The notes below the pieces were generated by a model. It did no database searches. It was not told where the DNA came from and was given only the letters and a program-made list of their open reading frames with translations. 64,000 nt of DNA. Origin: Methanolobus zinderi. GTDB taxonomy: Archaea > Halobacteriota > Methanosarcinia > Methanosarcinales > Methanosarcinaceae. Shown piece by piece: positions 20,818 through 27,864 of the stretch. Position numbers and translations under genes: made by a program. Numbering within the stretch: position 1 is the first letter of the stretch; each line of letters opens with the position of its first letter. Location of the stretch: assembly GCF_013388255.1 (NCBI RefSeq), contig NZ_CP058215.1, positions 1,798,001 through 1,862,000 of the forward strand, written 5' to 3'.

Positions 20818-21618
20818 TCACACCAGATTATATTTTTCAGAAATTTTCCATTTGGCATTGAGAAGATGGGAAATGGTTGCCGAAAATTCCTTGCCATTTG
20901 TCCAGATAGCCTTCAAATCGGTCTCCCCCTGATCCTCATTTATAACATCCACCAGTATCTCGGAATTATCAATAACGATCACAAAACTCTTAAGTTCACA
21001 TGGAACGTCCTGATCCAGATTGATCCGTACAGATGCAAGTGGTATATTTTCGGATATCTTGCGGGCTTCTTCTTCTGTAGAACTGACAAAACGTACATTC
21101 ACACCCTCAGCAATCTTTTCGTTGAATAGAGCCATGATCGTCTCGTAATCCTTTATAAAAGAAGGATACCTCCTGGCGAGTGTATAAAACGGTGTGGATG
21201 AACTCAGTACCAGAATCTCTTCCTGTGCATTCCCGACAAGCTGGATGATCTTATCAGCCACATTCCTGACCCCGTTTATGGTCCATATGGCTTCCTCCAA
21301 ATTATCCTCCGCCGAGCTCCGGTATATGCTATCCAGTTCAAGCAGGATGCTGTCACATTTATCCTCAAAACTGCGTTTGAGTTTGTTGACAGCATCTTCG
21401 GGAGGAAGACATTTATAGCGCACAGGTCGGGTATTCTGGACCTCTATCAGACCTTTTTTCTCAAGTTTTTTCAAAGCTCCGTAAATCGCTGAGCTGGGAA
21501 CACCAGAATCAGCATTAAGGGTTGCCACTGTAGCAGTATCGTTTTTCACAAGCGCTGCAAACACCCTGGCTTCATAGGAGGTGAAGCCGATTTCCTGAAG
21601 GGAATCTGTAAGAAGCAT
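20818..21618 (-). CDS. TrmB-family transcriptional regulator, last gene of the exporter operon
   Basis: A 266-residue protein with an N-terminal winged helix of the TrmB family (residues 1-80: LQEIGFTSYEARVFAALVKND, SGVPSSAIYGALKKLEKKGLIEV). A coiled-coil follows (about 85-110), then a ligand-binding-like domain containing EEILVLSSSTPFY and VIVIDNSEILVDVI. TrmB proteins often sense sugars or envelope-related compounds. It lies 23 bases after the NEW3 gene on the same strand, so it is likely the final gene of the MMPL-NEW3-NEW3-trmB operon and an autoregulator. A paralogue is encoded at 27004-27864. AGGTGAAG precedes the ATG. Confidence 0.85.
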   Translation of the reverse strand: MLLTDSLQEIGFTSYEARVFAALVKNDTATVATLNADSGVPSSAIYGALKKLEKKGLIEVQNTRPVRYKCLPPEDAVNKLKRSFEDKCDSILLELDSIYRSSAEDNLEEAIWTINGVRNVADKIIQLVGNAQEEILVLSSSTPFYTLARRYPSFIKDYETIMALFNEKIAEGVNVRFVSSTEEEARKISENIPLASVRINLDQDVPCELKSFVIVIDNSEILVDVINEDQGETDLKAIWTNGKEFSATISHLLNAKWKISEKYNLV

Positions 21619-21641: not shown

Positions 21642-22742
21642 TCAGTCTTTTCTGCCACTCAGTAATTTCCTGCCGCCGACATATACCAGTCCGAGAACTA
21701 TTATGACCCCACCAACTACAGCAAGGCTTGCCATACCGGAGCCAGACAAACCTGCTGGCAGGATCTCTACCCGGATCTTGATGGTGTCGGATATCTGGCT
21801 GTGTCCGTCGCTGTCCTCGTACTTGATCTCACTGTTAATGGCGTATACCTTCGGAACGGCCGATTCGTCCACCTTCAGCTTGAATATGGCCTCAGAGGTC
21901 TCACCTGGTGCGATTGAGCCTATAAAGGACTGGTCATCGGTTGTACTGAAAGGATCATCGGCACTAATCCTGACCGTGGCATCCCTTACTTCTTCTTCAC
22001 CTACGTTCTTATAGGCAACACGCAGCAAGCCTTCTCCGCCTGCTTCAAGATTAGCTGTGACGTTTGCGACCTCAAAGTCTGCTTCCTTTTCAACAACAAC
22101 GGAAAGCGGCTGAACCTGCTGGCCGACAGCATACCACATGCCAACTTCCATATTGGTGATACCAAGATCCGTCTCATTGTCACCATTCACCTGTACGTTC
22201 TCCTGATAACCATAGACCATGGTGAGATTGAGTGGATATTCTCCGGCAGGAGCGTTCTTTGATATCTCTATATTGAATTTTACAGGACTGTCCAGTTGCT
22301 GACCGCTTGAAAGGGAGCCTGCCTCCTGAGGGCCGGACTTTACTCTGACATACGGGCTGTCGGATTCCAGTGCTGCAACTATTCCGATGGCAGTGGTACG
22401 CTGTGCCTCATAACCCATCTCTGCTTTCTGCAACTTCTGATCCAGATCAGATCCGAAATCAGGCTCGTCGTCGGACTCAAAGCCGGTGATCACGCCTTTG
22501 TTCATGAGATTGATGCTGAGGGTTACCTCATCGCCACGGGAGAACTCATTGTCACCCACCATTGTGGCACTAACATCAGGACCACCATAAACAGTGTAGT
22601 AGTTCTCATCAAAATTGAAGAATTCCGGGAGATCCAGGTCCATTGTAGTCATTTCCTGGGCATATGCCTGTGAAGGGAACAACGCCAGGAGGACCAGCAG
22701 GACAAACGGAACTGACCTTAACAAGTTTTTGATCTTAATCAT
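21642..22742 (-). CDS. COG1361/NEW3-type envelope protein with C-terminal anchor (first paralogue)
   Basis: A 366-residue exported protein. It has a signal peptide (MIKIKNLLRSVPFVLLVLLA...AYAQ), an N-terminal block with YYTVYGGPDVSATMVGD and FSRGDEVTLSINLMNKG, and one or two immunoglobulin-like NEW3/CARDB domains (VTANLEAGGEGLLRVAYKN). A C-terminal helix (ASLAVVGGVIIVLGLVYVGG) ends in basic residues. The chain is outside the cell, anchored by its C terminus. The ATG at 22742 overlaps the end of the upstream paralogue by eight bases and follows GAGG; an ATG at 22784 would lengthen the N terminus without a site. Such proteins are often coupled to MMPL exporters; the exact role is unknown. Confidence 0.82.
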   Translation of the reverse strand: MIKIKNLLRSVPFVLLVLLALFPSQAYAQEMTTMDLDLPEFFNFDENYYTVYGGPDVSATMVGDNEFSRGDEVTLSINLMNKGVITGFESDDEPDFGSDLDQKLQKAEMGYEAQRTTAIGIVAALESDSPYVRVKSGPQEAGSLSSGQQLDSPVKFNIEISKNAPAGEYPLNLTMVYGYQENVQVNGDNETDLGITNMEVGMWYAVGQQVQPLSVVVEKEADFEVANVTANLEAGGEGLLRVAYKNVGEEEVRDATVRISADDPFSTTDDQSFIGSIAPGETSEAIFKLKVDESAVPKVYAINSEIKYEDSDGHSQISDTIKIRVEILPAGLSGSGMASLAVVGGVIIVLGLVYVGGRKLLSGRKD

Positions 22743-23865
22743 ATTTATCCTCTTCATTGTTCTTGATTTTATTATTGCTTCCATTTTTCCTTATATTCTT
22801 GATAATCAATACCAGCCCCATAATAACAAGACCTGCCAGGGCAATGGCTGTAATATTGAATTGTCTGTCAGGCATCCGGACATTTATATCTACCTTCATG
22901 TTCTCCGAAAACGCCGTTTCTTCATCATCGTCAATGTATCTGATCTCACTATCCAGACCATAGATCTTTTCCACTGCACTGTCAGATGAGCCGATCTCAA
23001 AGGAGATAGTCCTGCTCTCCCCGGGCTGAAGGGTTCCCAGACTTTTTACCGTATTCTCCGAGCTGAGAGGTTTCATTACAATTACCCTTGCCACAGCATC
23101 CTTTGCAGGGAGCTCTCCTATATTGGTGTAAGTCACATTGATGACATTGCTCTGACCTACTTCCAGATCTCCGGATACCTCACTTACCTCGAATCTTGCT
23201 TCCGGTTCCACGATCACAGGAATCTGCATTGTGGTATTGGCATTTTTATAATAATTTGCATGGTCAGTTGACAGACCCAGTTGTGCAACCTCATCGGTGG
23301 TCATCCTGACATCACTCTGGTATTCGTATTCCACCGGCAACTCCAACATGTAAGTTCCGGCAGGAGCATTGTTCGAGACAGTTAATGTAAATGTTAGGGG
23401 ATCGGGCAACTGGCCCGGTACTACCTCTTCCAGCGTCTGGCTGCTCGTTGCAGGGTCGACTTCGATGAACTCCGTGTTTGAAATGAGGGTAGTTTTTACT
23501 CCCTGTGCCGTGGTTCTCTTAGTCTCATATTCCAGTTCCGTAAGAGAAAGCTGGTGAAGCACTTCGGAGCTGCCTACATCCTTGTCTGCTTTCACACCTT
23601 TGAAGATACCGCGATTTGCAAGGACTATATTAATCTGAGCGGTCTCACCTCTGCTGAGTTCCGTATCACCGACAACCGATGAGTAAAGTGCCGGTTCGCC
23701 ATAAGTGTTGTAATAGTTCTCCGTATATTCATAAGGCAGAGGGATGTAATCCTTCGCACCTGCCGGCTGCATACACAGGACAAGCAGAGTTGCAAGAAGG
23801 ATACAGATAAACAGAGAACCTGAAATGATTCTTTTTTTGTTCATTGCTTTACTGAAATTATTCAT
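22735..23865 (-). CDS. COG1361/NEW3-type envelope protein with C-terminal anchor (second paralogue)
   Basis: A 376-residue paralogue of the preceding protein, with the same order: signal peptide (RIISGSLFICILLATLLVLCMQPAGA), the YYNTYGEPALYSSVVGD and LSRGETAQINIVLANRG block, NEW3-like beta domains (VSGDLEVGQSNVINVTYTN; GTLQPGESRTISFEI), and a C-terminal helix (ITAIALAGLVIMGLVLIIKN) followed by a Lys/Asn-rich cytoplasmic tail. It overlaps the exporter gene on one side (ATGA) and its paralogue on the other, so all three are translationally coupled. It probably forms an external accessory to the exporter, like a periplasmic adaptor; this is inferred. Confidence 0.82.
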   Translation of the reverse strand: MNNFSKAMNKKRIISGSLFICILLATLLVLCMQPAGAKDYIPLPYEYTENYYNTYGEPALYSSVVGDTELSRGETAQINIVLANRGIFKGVKADKDVGSSEVLHQLSLTELEYETKRTTAQGVKTTLISNTEFIEVDPATSSQTLEEVVPGQLPDPLTFTLTVSNNAPAGTYMLELPVEYEYQSDVRMTTDEVAQLGLSTDHANYYKNANTTMQIPVIVEPEARFEVSEVSGDLEVGQSNVINVTYTNIGELPAKDAVARVIVMKPLSSENTVKSLGTLQPGESRTISFEIGSSDSAVEKIYGLDSEIRYIDDDEETAFSENMKVDINVRMPDRQFNITAIALAGLVIMGLVLIIKNIRKNGSNNKIKNNEEDKYD

Positions 23866-26231
23866 GTAAGGTCTACCTCCGGAGTGTTCTTAGCCGGACC
23901 TGTGGCAGGAGTTAGTGTTACATCCTTCAATTGATTTTTCTTTTTCCCGTTCTCACGGTGAGTATCCAGGAACACTATCACAGCAGGGAATATGACAAAG
24001 GTTGCCAGCAATGCAAGCACAACATCGATAACGGTTATCATACCGAAACTGCTTGTGATTACAAAAGGTGAGGCTATCAGTGCCGAGAAACCGAAAACCG
24101 TGGTCAGGCCTGAAGTAAATATTGCCTTTCCGATCTTTACACTGGCTTCTTCCATAGCTTCTTCGGGACTTGCACCCCTTTCTTTTTCTTCGAAATACCG
24201 CTCCATCATGAGTACCGCATACTCAGAACCCACACCAAGGATCAGTGCACCCAGTGTCGCTGTCATAGGGTTGTACTCCATTCCGGAGTAGTACATGATA
24301 CCACCCGACCAGCCAACTACCATTGCCATTGTTATGACAGGTGTCAGTGCCTTGAGATAGTCACGGTAGATTACCAGCAGACCGAAGAATACCAGTACCA
24401 GACCAAGCAGTGTCATGAGTGTCCTTCCTGATGTAAGTGCGGCTATAACCTCAACAAAGACCATTGATCTGCCTGTGATGGTGGCACTTGTTCCGGGAGG
24501 GAGAGACATCCATGCTATATCCTCTTCAATCACTTCCCCGAGAGCTTCGATCCCTTCCAGCCCGAGCTCTCCCATGGCATTACCGATATTGAGGTTGAGC
24601 ATGGTCATCGTGTTGCCGTGCATATACCTTTCTCTGGTAGTCTCCGGCATCTGCTCATAAAGTGCAACTACCTCTGCCCTGTCATCAGGAATAGTTCCTC
24701 CGTTCATGCTTTTGACAACATCCACGATACTGCTGGAACCATATACATGGCTCCTGCCGTCCACTTCATGTTGACCGAACTCGTCCATCCATTTGAGCAG
24801 TTCGGGGTCTGCGTTATCAGAGGTTTTTATAATGATATTCAGTTCATCGCTGCCACCAAGGATATCACTCATATGCTGCAGGTCTATCAGTCCCGGCATA
24901 TCCTGTGGAACAAAGGTTTCGGTGTCCGTACTTATGGGAACTTTTGTATCAACATAGATACCACCAACACAGAGCAGGCCTGCAACTGCCAGTATGATTA
25001 GTGGATGGCGCATTGAGATCGCGGCAGTCTTTCCGATTACACGATCCAGGAAATCAGGACCTTCATCCTGCGTTTTAATTTCTTTTTTCTTTGAAGCTGA
25101 ATTTGGTTTGAGTTTTCTGATGATCGGGTTATCTCCCAGCCTGTCAAGACCGTAGATTACCGTAACACCTACAAAGAGAGATGAGAGGAAACACATCAGT
25201 ATACCTATCATCAGAAGTTTTCCGAAATCCTGTATCATAGGGACCGATGATGTGAACAGCGAGAAGAATCCAAGGGCTGTGATTATCAATGCTATTAGTA
25301 CTGCCGGCCCTGTATGCTTGACCGTATCGATCACAGCTTCTTCGGGGGATTCACCCTTTGCAAGTTCTTCTTCTATACGATTGTGGAACTGGATCGCATA
25401 ATCTATTCCCAGACCAATGAGTACCGGGAAGGCAGCCATGGAAACCATGGTCATCGGGATACTGAGATACCCCATGGCACCGAATGTGAAGATAATACCA
25501 AGCAATACGATGGGCAGAGGCAGAAGTCTCCAGCGTACATGCCTGAATACAAGATAGAGTACGATAACCATCAGAACAACGGAGAGCATGAGCAAAAGAC
25601 TCATACTGCTCATCATTTCCTCGTTCATGGCTATGTTGAACGCCGGGTCCCCTGTTACAATAATATTATAGTCAGCCGGGAAAAGCGCCATCTCGACCGA
25701 TCTTTCGGTCTCACGCAGAATATCCTCCTGCATGGCCTCTGAAGCGGAACCTGAGAAGACAACAGAAACAACTGCATGGGTCTGATCAGGTACCAGTGCT
25801 TCCGGAACATCCGATTCAATGATCTCATCGATCACCGCTTCATCCTCAGGAATCTCACTCCGGCCCGTGTTCTGATACGTCACGTCCTTAATAACAGATG
25901 AGGCAGAGGTGACCTCCAGTACATTGGGTATATTCTGTGTGGACTGCTGGAGGCGATCCATTGCCTTTAGCACCTCAGGCTGGGTGACATCGCTTCCTTC
26001 CACCATCACAACAATGGATTCCGTACTGAAGAGATTCATGTACAGATGGTCGAAGTCCTGATAGAGCTTTGAATCTTTATCGACAAAGGTATCGGTACCC
26101 GATGCCATCTCGATCATAGAGGCACCCTGGAAGGAGATGACCATCAATAATAATGCAATGATCAGAATGGGTATGGAATTATCCTCAATGAATACCCCGA
26201 GTTTTTCAAAATTGGCCTTTATGATCGACAC
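23862..26231 (-). CDS. RND-superfamily (MMPL-type) exporter
   Basis: A 789-residue membrane protein with the RND two-fold repeat. One helix at the N terminus (ILIIALLLMVISFQG) is followed by a large external loop and a five-helix bundle containing GLGIDYAIQFHNRIEEE. A second cycle follows, with helix, external loop and bundle containing GVGSEYAVLMMERYFEE. The paired GxGxD/E-Y-A motifs are typical of archaeal and MmpL-like exporters of lipids or other hydrophobic compounds, driven by ion gradients. It is the first gene of an operon with two NEW3 proteins and TrmB. The coordinate start is GTG at 26231, but this codon overlaps the Shine-Dalgarno AAGGAG; ATC at 26225 is the codon at normal spacing. 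Confidence 0.9.
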   Translation of the reverse strand: MSIIKANFEKLGVFIEDNSIPILIIALLLMVISFQGASMIEMASGTDTFVDKDSKLYQDFDHLYMNLFSTESIVVMVEGSDVTQPEVLKAMDRLQQSTQNIPNVLEVTSASSVIKDVTYQNTGRSEIPEDEAVIDEIIESDVPEALVPDQTHAVVSVVFSGSASEAMQEDILRETERSVEMALFPADYNIIVTGDPAFNIAMNEEMMSSMSLLLMLSVVLMVIVLYLVFRHVRWRLLPLPIVLLGIIFTFGAMGYLSIPMTMVSMAAFPVLIGLGIDYAIQFHNRIEEELAKGESPEEAVIDTVKHTGPAVLIALIITALGFFSLFTSSVPMIQDFGKLLMIGILMCFLSSLFVGVTVIYGLDRLGDNPIIRKLKPNSASKKKEIKTQDEGPDFLDRVIGKTAAISMRHPLIILAVAGLLCVGGIYVDTKVPISTDTETFVPQDMPGLIDLQHMSDILGGSDELNIIIKTSDNADPELLKWMDEFGQHEVDGRSHVYGSSSIVDVVKSMNGGTIPDDRAEVVALYEQMPETTRERYMHGNTMTMLNLNIGNAMGELGLEGIEALGEVIEEDIAWMSLPPGTSATITGRSMVFVEVIAALTSGRTLMTLLGLVLVFFGLLVIYRDYLKALTPVITMAMVVGWSGGIMYYSGMEYNPMTATLGALILGVGSEYAVLMMERYFEEKERGASPEEAMEEASVKIGKAIFTSGLTTVFGFSALIASPFVITSSFGMITVIDVVLALLATFVIFPAVIVFLDTHRENGKKKNQLKDVTLTPATGPAKNTPEVDLT

Positions 26232-26267
26232 TCCTTAGTATTTATTCGAATAATAAAACTCCTTTTT

Positions 26268-26319
26268 GGTTGTTTTAACTGCAATATTGCTATATAAGGG
26301 TTTTACCCTTAAAACAACC
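26268..26319 (-). promoter_or_regulatory. Compound palindromic operator around the TATA box of the exporter operon
   Basis: Three nested palindromes lie 37-94 bases before the exporter gene. The outer arms are GGTTGTTTTAA (26268-26278) and its exact reverse complement TTAAAACAACC (26309-26319). Inside are GCAATATTGC (26281-26290) and TAAGGGT-TTT-ACCCTTA (26295-26311). TATATAA at 26291-26297 serves as TATA for minus-strand transcription, placing the start near 26266. A repressor binding here would block the TATA box. Since the operon encodes a TrmB protein and the half-site GTTGTTTTAA recurs at 26944-26953 before a second trmB gene, TrmB is the natural candidate. Confidence 0.6.
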
Positions 26320-26595
26320 TGCAAAAAGTGAAAAGTAAAGTATGGCGACAACTTGCTTTTTATGCTGCAGAACAGGTCTTCTTCAATCCCAAAAAGCTGA
26401 AGCTGACAAAGTCTGCTTTTTCCGAAACTATAAATAGGTTTAACAGTTTCCTGAATTTTTGCGCAATTAAGACAAACCTGACTATTTATCGTCATTTAAA
26501 GCATATAATAAGAAATCTGCTATATAACATTTCCTATTTCTGAAGAAGTTCTCTATTCAAATCTGAATTAAAGAAATCAAAATTAAGGAAAAAGG

Positions 26596-26624
26596 AGAGA
26601 CACCTACTGGAGGTGTCTCTTTTT
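26596..26624 (+). terminator. Strong orphan hairpin terminator, possible end of a small RNA
   Basis: AGAGACACCT-ACTGG-AGGTGTCTCT-TTTT is a perfect ten-pair stem with T tail on the plus strand. No plus-strand gene ends nearby. Upstream at 26428-26436 there is CTATAAATAG, a textbook archaeal TATA box, which would give a transcript of about 160 bases ending at this hairpin. This may be a small non-coding RNA between the divergent exporter operon and trmB2. No convincing ORF lies in the interval. Confidence 0.55.
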
Positions 26625-27003
26625 GGGGTGGTTGGATTGGTGGTACTGAATTCACGACAAGTTTTGCCGTGGGTACACGGTATGAGATTGGATTATTAAT
26701 ACATAAACCTTTCTATATATCGAAGTGTTTGAAATTATAAACTCGAGAGTGACTGGATATACTAGAACTAAACTCTCATACGGTGTGTAACGAGAGAGGA
26801 AACACCCTTGCCAATACAAAGAGAAAAAGTAAACTTAAAGATTTCACTCTGGAAAAAACTGGTAAAGAGTTGAACCACATGCATTAATAAATATTTTAAT
26901 CCATACAAAAAGCTACAAAACTTTTATTAAAAACCTCTGCTTAGTTGTTTTAAATTTGAAGACACAATAATGATAATAATACAATAATCAAGAGGGCAGA
27001 CAG
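26625..27003. promoter_or_regulatory. Intergenic region upstream of the second TrmB gene
   Basis: AT-rich DNA without a gene. It contains an inverted repeat with arms about 100 bases apart (ACACGGTATGAG at 26675-26686; CTCATACGGTGT at 26775-26786, one mismatch) and a small CCGTG-GGTA-CACGG hairpin at 26667-26680. At 26944-26953 GTTGTTTTAA repeats the operator half-site of the exporter operon. TATA candidates near 26885-26900 and ribosome site GAGGG at 26991-26995 belong to the next gene. Confidence 0.4.
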
Positions 27004-27864
27004 ATGGATAACGAGAGATTGCTCAGAGATCTTGGACTTACTAAATACGAGTCATCCGCTTACTCCACACTCATAAAAGAAGGAGTTACAGGTGCACAGG
27101 AGCTCTCACGCATATCAGGCATACCCGTGGGGAAGATATACGAGGTACTTTCAAACCTGAACAATATGGGACTTGTAGTGTTCCAGAGATCAAGACCCAG
27201 GAAATACAGAGCAATAAAACCGGAAGTTGCACTTGACAACCTCTACACCAGGAAAGAAGAGAATACGAAAAGCGAACTTGAAAGTTTCAAACTGAAGATA
27301 TCGGAGCTCAAGGACAGCTTTTCAGACAGCAATTATCCGGACCACACCGAGATCAAGTTCTGGTCAACACTTATCGGCGAGGAAGACATAGTCAAGAGTA
27401 TAAAGAACACGCTGGATGAAACCGAAAATGAGATCCTGCATGTCAAGTCCATGAAGACAAAAGAAGCTCTGCAGAACAAGACCAGACGCCACAAGGATCT
27501 GAATCCAAACATACTTCTTCCCCTTGTGACAGACGAGTTCATCCGGGCTGCAAAATCCGGGATTAAAATAAAGATGCTATTGCCTGCGGATTTTTTCATA
27601 ACCCACCTGAAGGAGAAATACACCCATATTGAGGATTCAAATGTGAGGAAAACAATTAAAGAGAATCTGGAAGTAAGAATCCTAGAATGTGACTATGATT
27701 TCGTGGTAATCGATGACAACGTGGTATACATACCTATCCCCGACCCGCTGAACCCGGACGGACTGCTCGGGGAAATGAAGATGTTTGACAAGGAATACGC
27801 TGAAAAACTTCGAAAGAAGTATGATGAGCTGTGGGCGAGGGGGAAGAGGACTGTACTGGAGTGA
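27004..27864 (+). CDS. TrmB-family transcriptional regulator (second copy)
   Basis: A 286-residue TrmB protein with an N-terminal winged helix (LLRDLGLTKYESSAYSTLIKEG; SGIPVGKIYEVLSNLNNMGLVVFQRSRPRKY). A long coiled-coil (about 80-110) follows, then an effector domain with NEILHVKSMKTKE, IKIKMLLPADFFI and VVIDDNVVYIPIPDPLNP. It is a paralogue of the regulator at 20818-21618. It is divergent from the exporter operon and shares an operator half-site with it, so the two TrmB proteins may regulate each other. The ligand is unknown. Confidence 0.85.
   Translation: MDNERLLRDLGLTKYESSAYSTLIKEGVTGAQELSRISGIPVGKIYEVLSNLNNMGLVVFQRSRPRKYRAIKPEVALDNLYTRKEENTKSELESFKLKISELKDSFSDSNYPDHTEIKFWSTLIGEEDIVKSIKNTLDETENEILHVKSMKTKEALQNKTRRHKDLNPNILLPLVTDEFIRAAKSGIKIKMLLPADFFITHLKEKYTHIEDSNVRKTIKENLEVRILECDYDFVVIDDNVVYIPIPDPLNPDGLLGEMKMFDKEYAEKLRKKYDELWARGKRTVLE

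Follow-up and report, generated by a model that had tools for sequence, protein, structure and literature searches.

The gap between an MMPL exporter operon and a divergently transcribed trmB gene of Methanolobus contains what comparison of related genomes suggests are three copies of one 24-bp putative operator, with the consensus AAAACnYCn5AGTTGTTTTAA. An initial annotation of this DNA had described the same region as a compound palindrome at the exporter promoter together with a half-site at the second trmB gene. Two of the copies (OM1 and OM2) flank the exporter TATA box, and the other (OT) lies in the trmB promoter. The TrmB-family protein encoded by the divergent gene, P0003, very probably binds all three sites and represses both the MMPL operon and itself, and it may activate from OM1. 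By domain content and gene layout P0003 is an ordinary local regulator of the TrmB family within a standard control circuit; what is new lies in the putative operator sequence, in its presence on both sides of a single TATA box, and in DUF7436 as the sensor. The locus offers a precise putative operator, a small regulon, a probable target gene, and natural losses of the regulator (genomes G055 and G052), making it a compact case for the joint change of archaeal regulators and their sites, with apparent regulator turnover at a conserved exporter operon.

The window, which is the whole 64-kb stretch of DNA that was analyzed, comes from a genome consisting of a single 2.70-Mb contig. The genomes nearest to it in the GTDB set belong to Methanolobus, the nearest named one being M. 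halotolerans, whose P0003 is 90% identical. All of the motifs named in the initial annotation, the trmB gene at the end of the operon, and the divergent trmB gene were found where they had been placed. The genes of the locus are as follows.

20818 to 21618, minus strand: P0002, operon-end TrmB-family regulator (Pfam TrmB, 1.1e-21)
21642 to 22784, minus strand: exported accessory protein 2 (weak NEW3-like match)
22735 to 23865, minus strand: exported accessory protein 1 (weak NEW3-like match)
23862 to 26231, minus strand: MMPL/HAE3-family RND exporter, first gene of the operon (Pfam MMPL, 1.6e-62)
27004 to 27864, plus strand: P0003, divergent TrmB-family regulator (winged helix and PLD-like C-terminal domain, DUF7436)

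The exporter scores 748.5 bits against TIGR00921 (cutoff, 351.9), placing it among the HAE3/MMPL RND transporters, and it is separated from the divergent P0003 gene by 772 bp. Residues 7 to 74 of P0003 form an N-terminal winged helix-turn-helix of the TrmB family (PF01978; E value of 4.5e-21; score of 74.9 bits, with the cutoff at 25.6). The conserved recognition-helix tyrosine of the family is present as Y46, which is invariant in 12 orthologs and, judged from its position, is probably equivalent to Y50 of TrmB. The C terminus matches DUF7436 (Pfam, 2e-15) and not the sugar-binding domain PF11495, and P0003 falls below the NCBIfam equivalog cutoffs for the sugar-sensing proteins TrmBL1 (72 versus 650 bits) and TrmB (49 versus 600 bits). 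It also scores below the TrmBL2 equivalog cutoff (54.6 versus 530 bits), though the fold is similar: TrmBL2 was the best match to an AlphaFold model of moderate quality (pLDDT of 81, pTM of 0.53).

The exporter was used to search 112 genomes of the family, and the promoters of approximately 60 orthologs were read. In the window, the promoter elements within the gap are as follows.

26255 to 26278, plus strand: OM2, putative operator downstream of the exporter TATA box, AAAACTCCTTTTTGGTTGTTTTAA
26291 to 26308, minus strand: exporter core promoter, BRE region and TATA box, GGGTAAAACCC-TTATATA
26309 to 26332, minus strand: OM1, inverted third copy of the putative operator, upstream of the BRE/TATA, TTCACTTTTTGCAGGTTGTTTTAA
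26930 to 26953, plus strand: OT, putative operator in the divergent trmB promoter, AAAACCTCTGCTTAGTTGTTTTAA

The half-site GTTGTTTTAA, which had been reported before the divergent trmB gene at positions 26944 to 26953, is real but forms part of a longer shared element, 24 bp that are 79% identical between the two promoters (26255 to 26278 versus 26930 to 26953). OM2 and OT are conserved islands amid otherwise variable sequence. Conservation across the gap is high over the exporter promoter (26223 to 26332), drops to background, rises in an island at about 26583 to 26737, and is high again over OT. OM2 is kept in all 18 Methanolobus genomes that carry the divergent trmB, in the form AAAACTCYn5AGTTGTTTTAA between the TATA box and the exporter start, and in Methanohalobium, and it is degenerate in Methanosalsum. 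OT was detected in 16 of the same 18 Methanolobus genomes, being undetected in G049 and of nonstandard form in G053; its conserved form is AAAACATCTTTATAGTTGTTTTAAC, with the half-site 52 to 75 nt ahead of the P0003 start codon. A position weight matrix built from OT alone recovered OM2 as the top match in 17 of 18 Methanolobus promoters examined and as the second match in the remaining one (L078).

OM1 fits the consensus less well than do OM2 and OT. With a strict matrix and small pseudocounts, single genomes gave P values for OM1 of 0.005 to 0.69, and it was the pooling of aligned genomes that resolved the site. When a matrix from OT and OM2 was run over 19 aligned promoters, the mean score peaked at 5.45 at the OM1 offset, in inverted orientation, compared with -1.66 for the next best position, and none of 400 column permutations reached as high a peak. 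The top match to this matrix in Methanosalsum was at the identical offset, with a score of 15.0. The distance from OM1 to the BRE/TATA is constant across the aligned promoters, whereas the TATA box and OM2 are 12 nt apart in the window's group and 24 to 26 nt apart in most others. OM1 and OM2 face each other, and it is this arrangement that had been read as a palindrome.

The prediction of a TrmB-type operator at the exporter promoter is borne out to the extent that the site is conserved before orthologous operons; what is conserved there is the individual sites and not the whole compound palindrome. Exact matches to the pattern AAAACNNYN5RGTTGTTTTA number 32 across the 112 genomes, and 28 of them, by manual count, are at the exporter/trmB locus. 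In the genome that contains the window, no sequence other than OM2 and OT is within one mismatch of the search consensus; a third genomic site with two mismatches (C1:2556125), which adjoins an integrase-like fragment, was rejected as probably a chance match. Orthologs of P0003 beside the exporter were found in 18 Methanolobus, 2 Methanohalobium, and 1 Methanosalsum genomes, which are related and not independent samples, and all of these have operator-like sites. Methanohalobium has one clear site in a short gap shared by the exporter and P0003, and Methanosalsum, in which P0003 is downstream of the exporter and codirectional, has a strong OM1. Lineages without the P0003 gene at the locus, including Methanolobus genomes G040, G044, G047, G050, G056, and G057 and a genus coded g11, are also without the sites, with the exception of G052. 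That genome has a near-intact OM2 with one mismatch to the pattern and a decayed P0003 (L185, 701 to 945), of which the DNA-binding domain is gone and only the C-terminal part, interrupted by a stop codon, is left. This is the main awkward fact; it would fit a recent loss of trmB, and it would also fit another factor using the site. G055 is nested within the P0003-bearing clade of the exporter tree as the sister of G045 (support of 96/93) and has no P0003 ortholog, its best match being a paralog elsewhere with 36% identity; there OM2 is destroyed while the TATA region is intact.

The initial annotation had proposed that one or both TrmB proteins repress the exporter, and the comparison favors the divergent protein, since the sites follow its gene, over the operon-end protein, which is dispensable for them. 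It is unlikely that P0002, or the two proteins jointly, binds OM1, OM2, and OT. P0002 is encoded inside the operon to be controlled and is present in most Methanolobus genomes, and where P0003 is missing the exporter promoter has a different GTTGTT palindrome, next to a gene of the P0002 type. However, P0002 is absent from the locus in G049, G055, Methanosalsum, and Methanohalobium, of which all but G055 retain operator-like sites; in Methanosalsum and Methanohalobium the divergent-type TrmB is the only one at the locus. Conversely, the sites are missing from P0002-bearing genomes that lack P0003. G055 has lost P0002 as well, so the decay of OM2 there cannot alone separate the two proteins. 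The further suggestion that the two TrmB proteins regulate each other found no backing, with no sign of the operon-end protein acting on the divergent one, and autoregulation by P0003 is the simpler reading.

All three sites are imperfect dyads placed near the BRE/TATA or the likely start, as expected of TrmB-family operators. In characterized TrmB proteins, operators downstream of the BRE/TATA mediate repression and those upstream mediate activation (PMC4158304). OM2 and OT are downstream of likely TATA boxes, so that repression of both the exporter and P0003 would be expected, whereas the fixed upstream position of OM1 would allow either cooperative repression or activation. P0003 is thus envisaged as a local, self-limiting regulator of the exporter operon, a dimer of which would recognize an imperfect dyad of approximately 22 to 24 bp with the ideal form AAAACAACT-N4-AGTTGTTTT. 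Bound at OM2, over or just past the predicted start of exporter transcription, it would block RNA polymerase, and at OT, downstream of its own TATA box, it would do the same and repress its own gene. At OM1, which lies upstream of the BRE/TATA at a constant spacing, it might strengthen repression or activate. P0003 would leave the DNA when its C-terminal domain senses a ligand, perhaps the compound that is exported. A more elaborate and rather doubtful variant is a two-position switch, in which the rigidly placed OM1 activates, the loosely placed OM2 represses, and OT limits the supply of P0003, such that the exporter is on only within a window of regulator activity; in that variant a small-RNA-like element located between the genes may also be part of the circuit.

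This element (26589 to 26693, minus strand) lies between the exporter and P0003 promoters and has a TATA-like box, a conserved GTGTACCATCAAC...GTTAGTACCACCCTATCCAACCCCC, and a terminator-like hairpin with a T-run. A covariance model found it in approximately 20 Methanolobus genomes, nearly always at the locus, with a strong copy elsewhere in G050. Covariation was weak, with one double change, and the element has no entry in Rfam.

It is very unlikely that the conserved elements are merely the core promoter and leader of two genes. One of them does belong to a core promoter, namely, GGGTAAAAYCCTTATATA, which is conserved across the genus and whose exact match is unique in the genome, and OM2 is within the probable 5' leader. 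The block up to and including the exporter TATA box reads ACTnTTnAnnAGTTTATTAnAGGGTAAAAYCCTTATATA in Methanolobus with P0003. Yet the 24-bp element is shared by two promoters, its orientation with respect to transcription is reversed from one to the other, a third copy (OM1) is upstream of the TATA box, the distance from the TATA box to OM2 varies from 12 nt to 24 to 26 nt, and in G055 OM2 has decayed while the TATA region remains. The opposite orientations and the position of OM1 upstream of the TATA box also led us to reject a cis-acting RNA at both operators, and Rfam gave nothing above threshold.

The comparison did not support the compound palindrome as a unit. In the single sequence its arms, GGTTGTTTTAA (26268 to 26278) and TTAAAACAACC (26309 to 26319), are complementary at 11 of 11 positions with 30 nt between them, and they enclose GCAATATTGC (26281 to 26290), TATATAA (26291 to 26297), and TAAGGGT-TTT-ACCCTTA (at about 26295 to 26311). 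Only in the window's species are the 11-bp arms perfect, most relatives having AGTTTATTAA as the upstream arm. As an operator GCAATATTGC was rejected, being present only in the nearest relatives, and with 57 perfect 10-bp palindromes in the window it is unremarkable. A palindromic operator at TAAGGGTTTTACCCTTA was rejected too: the conservation of GGGTAAAAYCC is that of promoter sequence, and the variant with T is no longer symmetrical. Within the 2.7-Mb genome there is a single exact copy of the long palindrome. Dinucleotide shuffling of the 772-bp gap produced an 11-bp inverted repeat with a loop of up to 60 nt in 2.8% of cases, the figure for the 120-bp promoter was 0.6%, and the 64-kb window contains six such repeats, so the repeat taken alone is weak, suggestive evidence, and it is the comparative data that are convincing. 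A chance origin of the long palindrome, as a repeat in AT-rich DNA, is scarcely credible, since conservation excludes chance for OM2 and OT, although the imperfect upstream arm of the relatives means that the perfect match of the arms in the window's species may be partly accidental.

Among known systems, TrmB of Pyrococcus furiosus and Thermococcus litoralis is likewise encoded beside the transporter operon that it controls (trehalose-maltose), and it represses by binding an inverted repeat at the BRE/TATA region (PMC4158304). The site described here is a longer dyad than the TACT-N3-AGTA of that protein, which has a sugar-binding domain where P0003 has DUF7436, an MMPL exporter as its predicted target, and three sites. 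TrmBL1/Tgr of the Thermococcales follows a like position rule, repressing from downstream of the TATA box and activating from upstream, and autoregulation has been proposed for Tgr (PMC4158304); Tgr acts on more than 30 genes through TATCAC-N5-GTGATA, whereas here there is one locus with sites flanking one TATA box. The closest solved structure to P0003 is TrmBL2 (PDB accession no. 5BPD and 5BOX), with a winged helix, a PLD-like C-terminal domain, and approximately 23 to 24% full-length identity, but TrmBL2 is an archaeal chromatin protein, whereas the predicted target of P0003 is specific and near-unique. MreA of Methanosarcina acetivorans, a TrmB-type regulator from the same order of methanogens, is global and lacks a C-terminal regulator domain (PMC4158304), in contrast to the local P0003 with its DUF7436 domain. 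A 2014 review of the family, in which MreA is the sole methanogen TrmB-type regulator covered, reports that MreA yielded no identifiable binding motif (PMC4158304). The open literature searched yielded no published binding motif for a methanogen TrmB and nothing relevant on TrmB with MMPL or HAE3 in methanogens.

Other sites were seen at related promoters. Ten genomes without the divergent trmB have the palindrome GTTGTTATN4ATAACAAC once each, which points to the apparent turnover of regulators at this operon; the remaining 102 genomes do not have it. In every contig that could be checked it is at the exporter promoter, upstream of the TATA box, and in these genomes it is a candidate site of the operon-end TrmB. 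It was seen upstream of the MMPL gene at L080, L084, L087, L088, L090, L091, L024, L028, and L029. A conserved TGTTAGTA-N6-TACTAACA lies directly past the TATA box of a second MMPL paralog operon (L134 to L145), which also carries a P0002-type TrmB. In genus g14 (L043, L047, L049, and L052) a different inverted repeat, TGACTATGGTCA..TGACCGCAGTCA, is present at the MMPL promoter.
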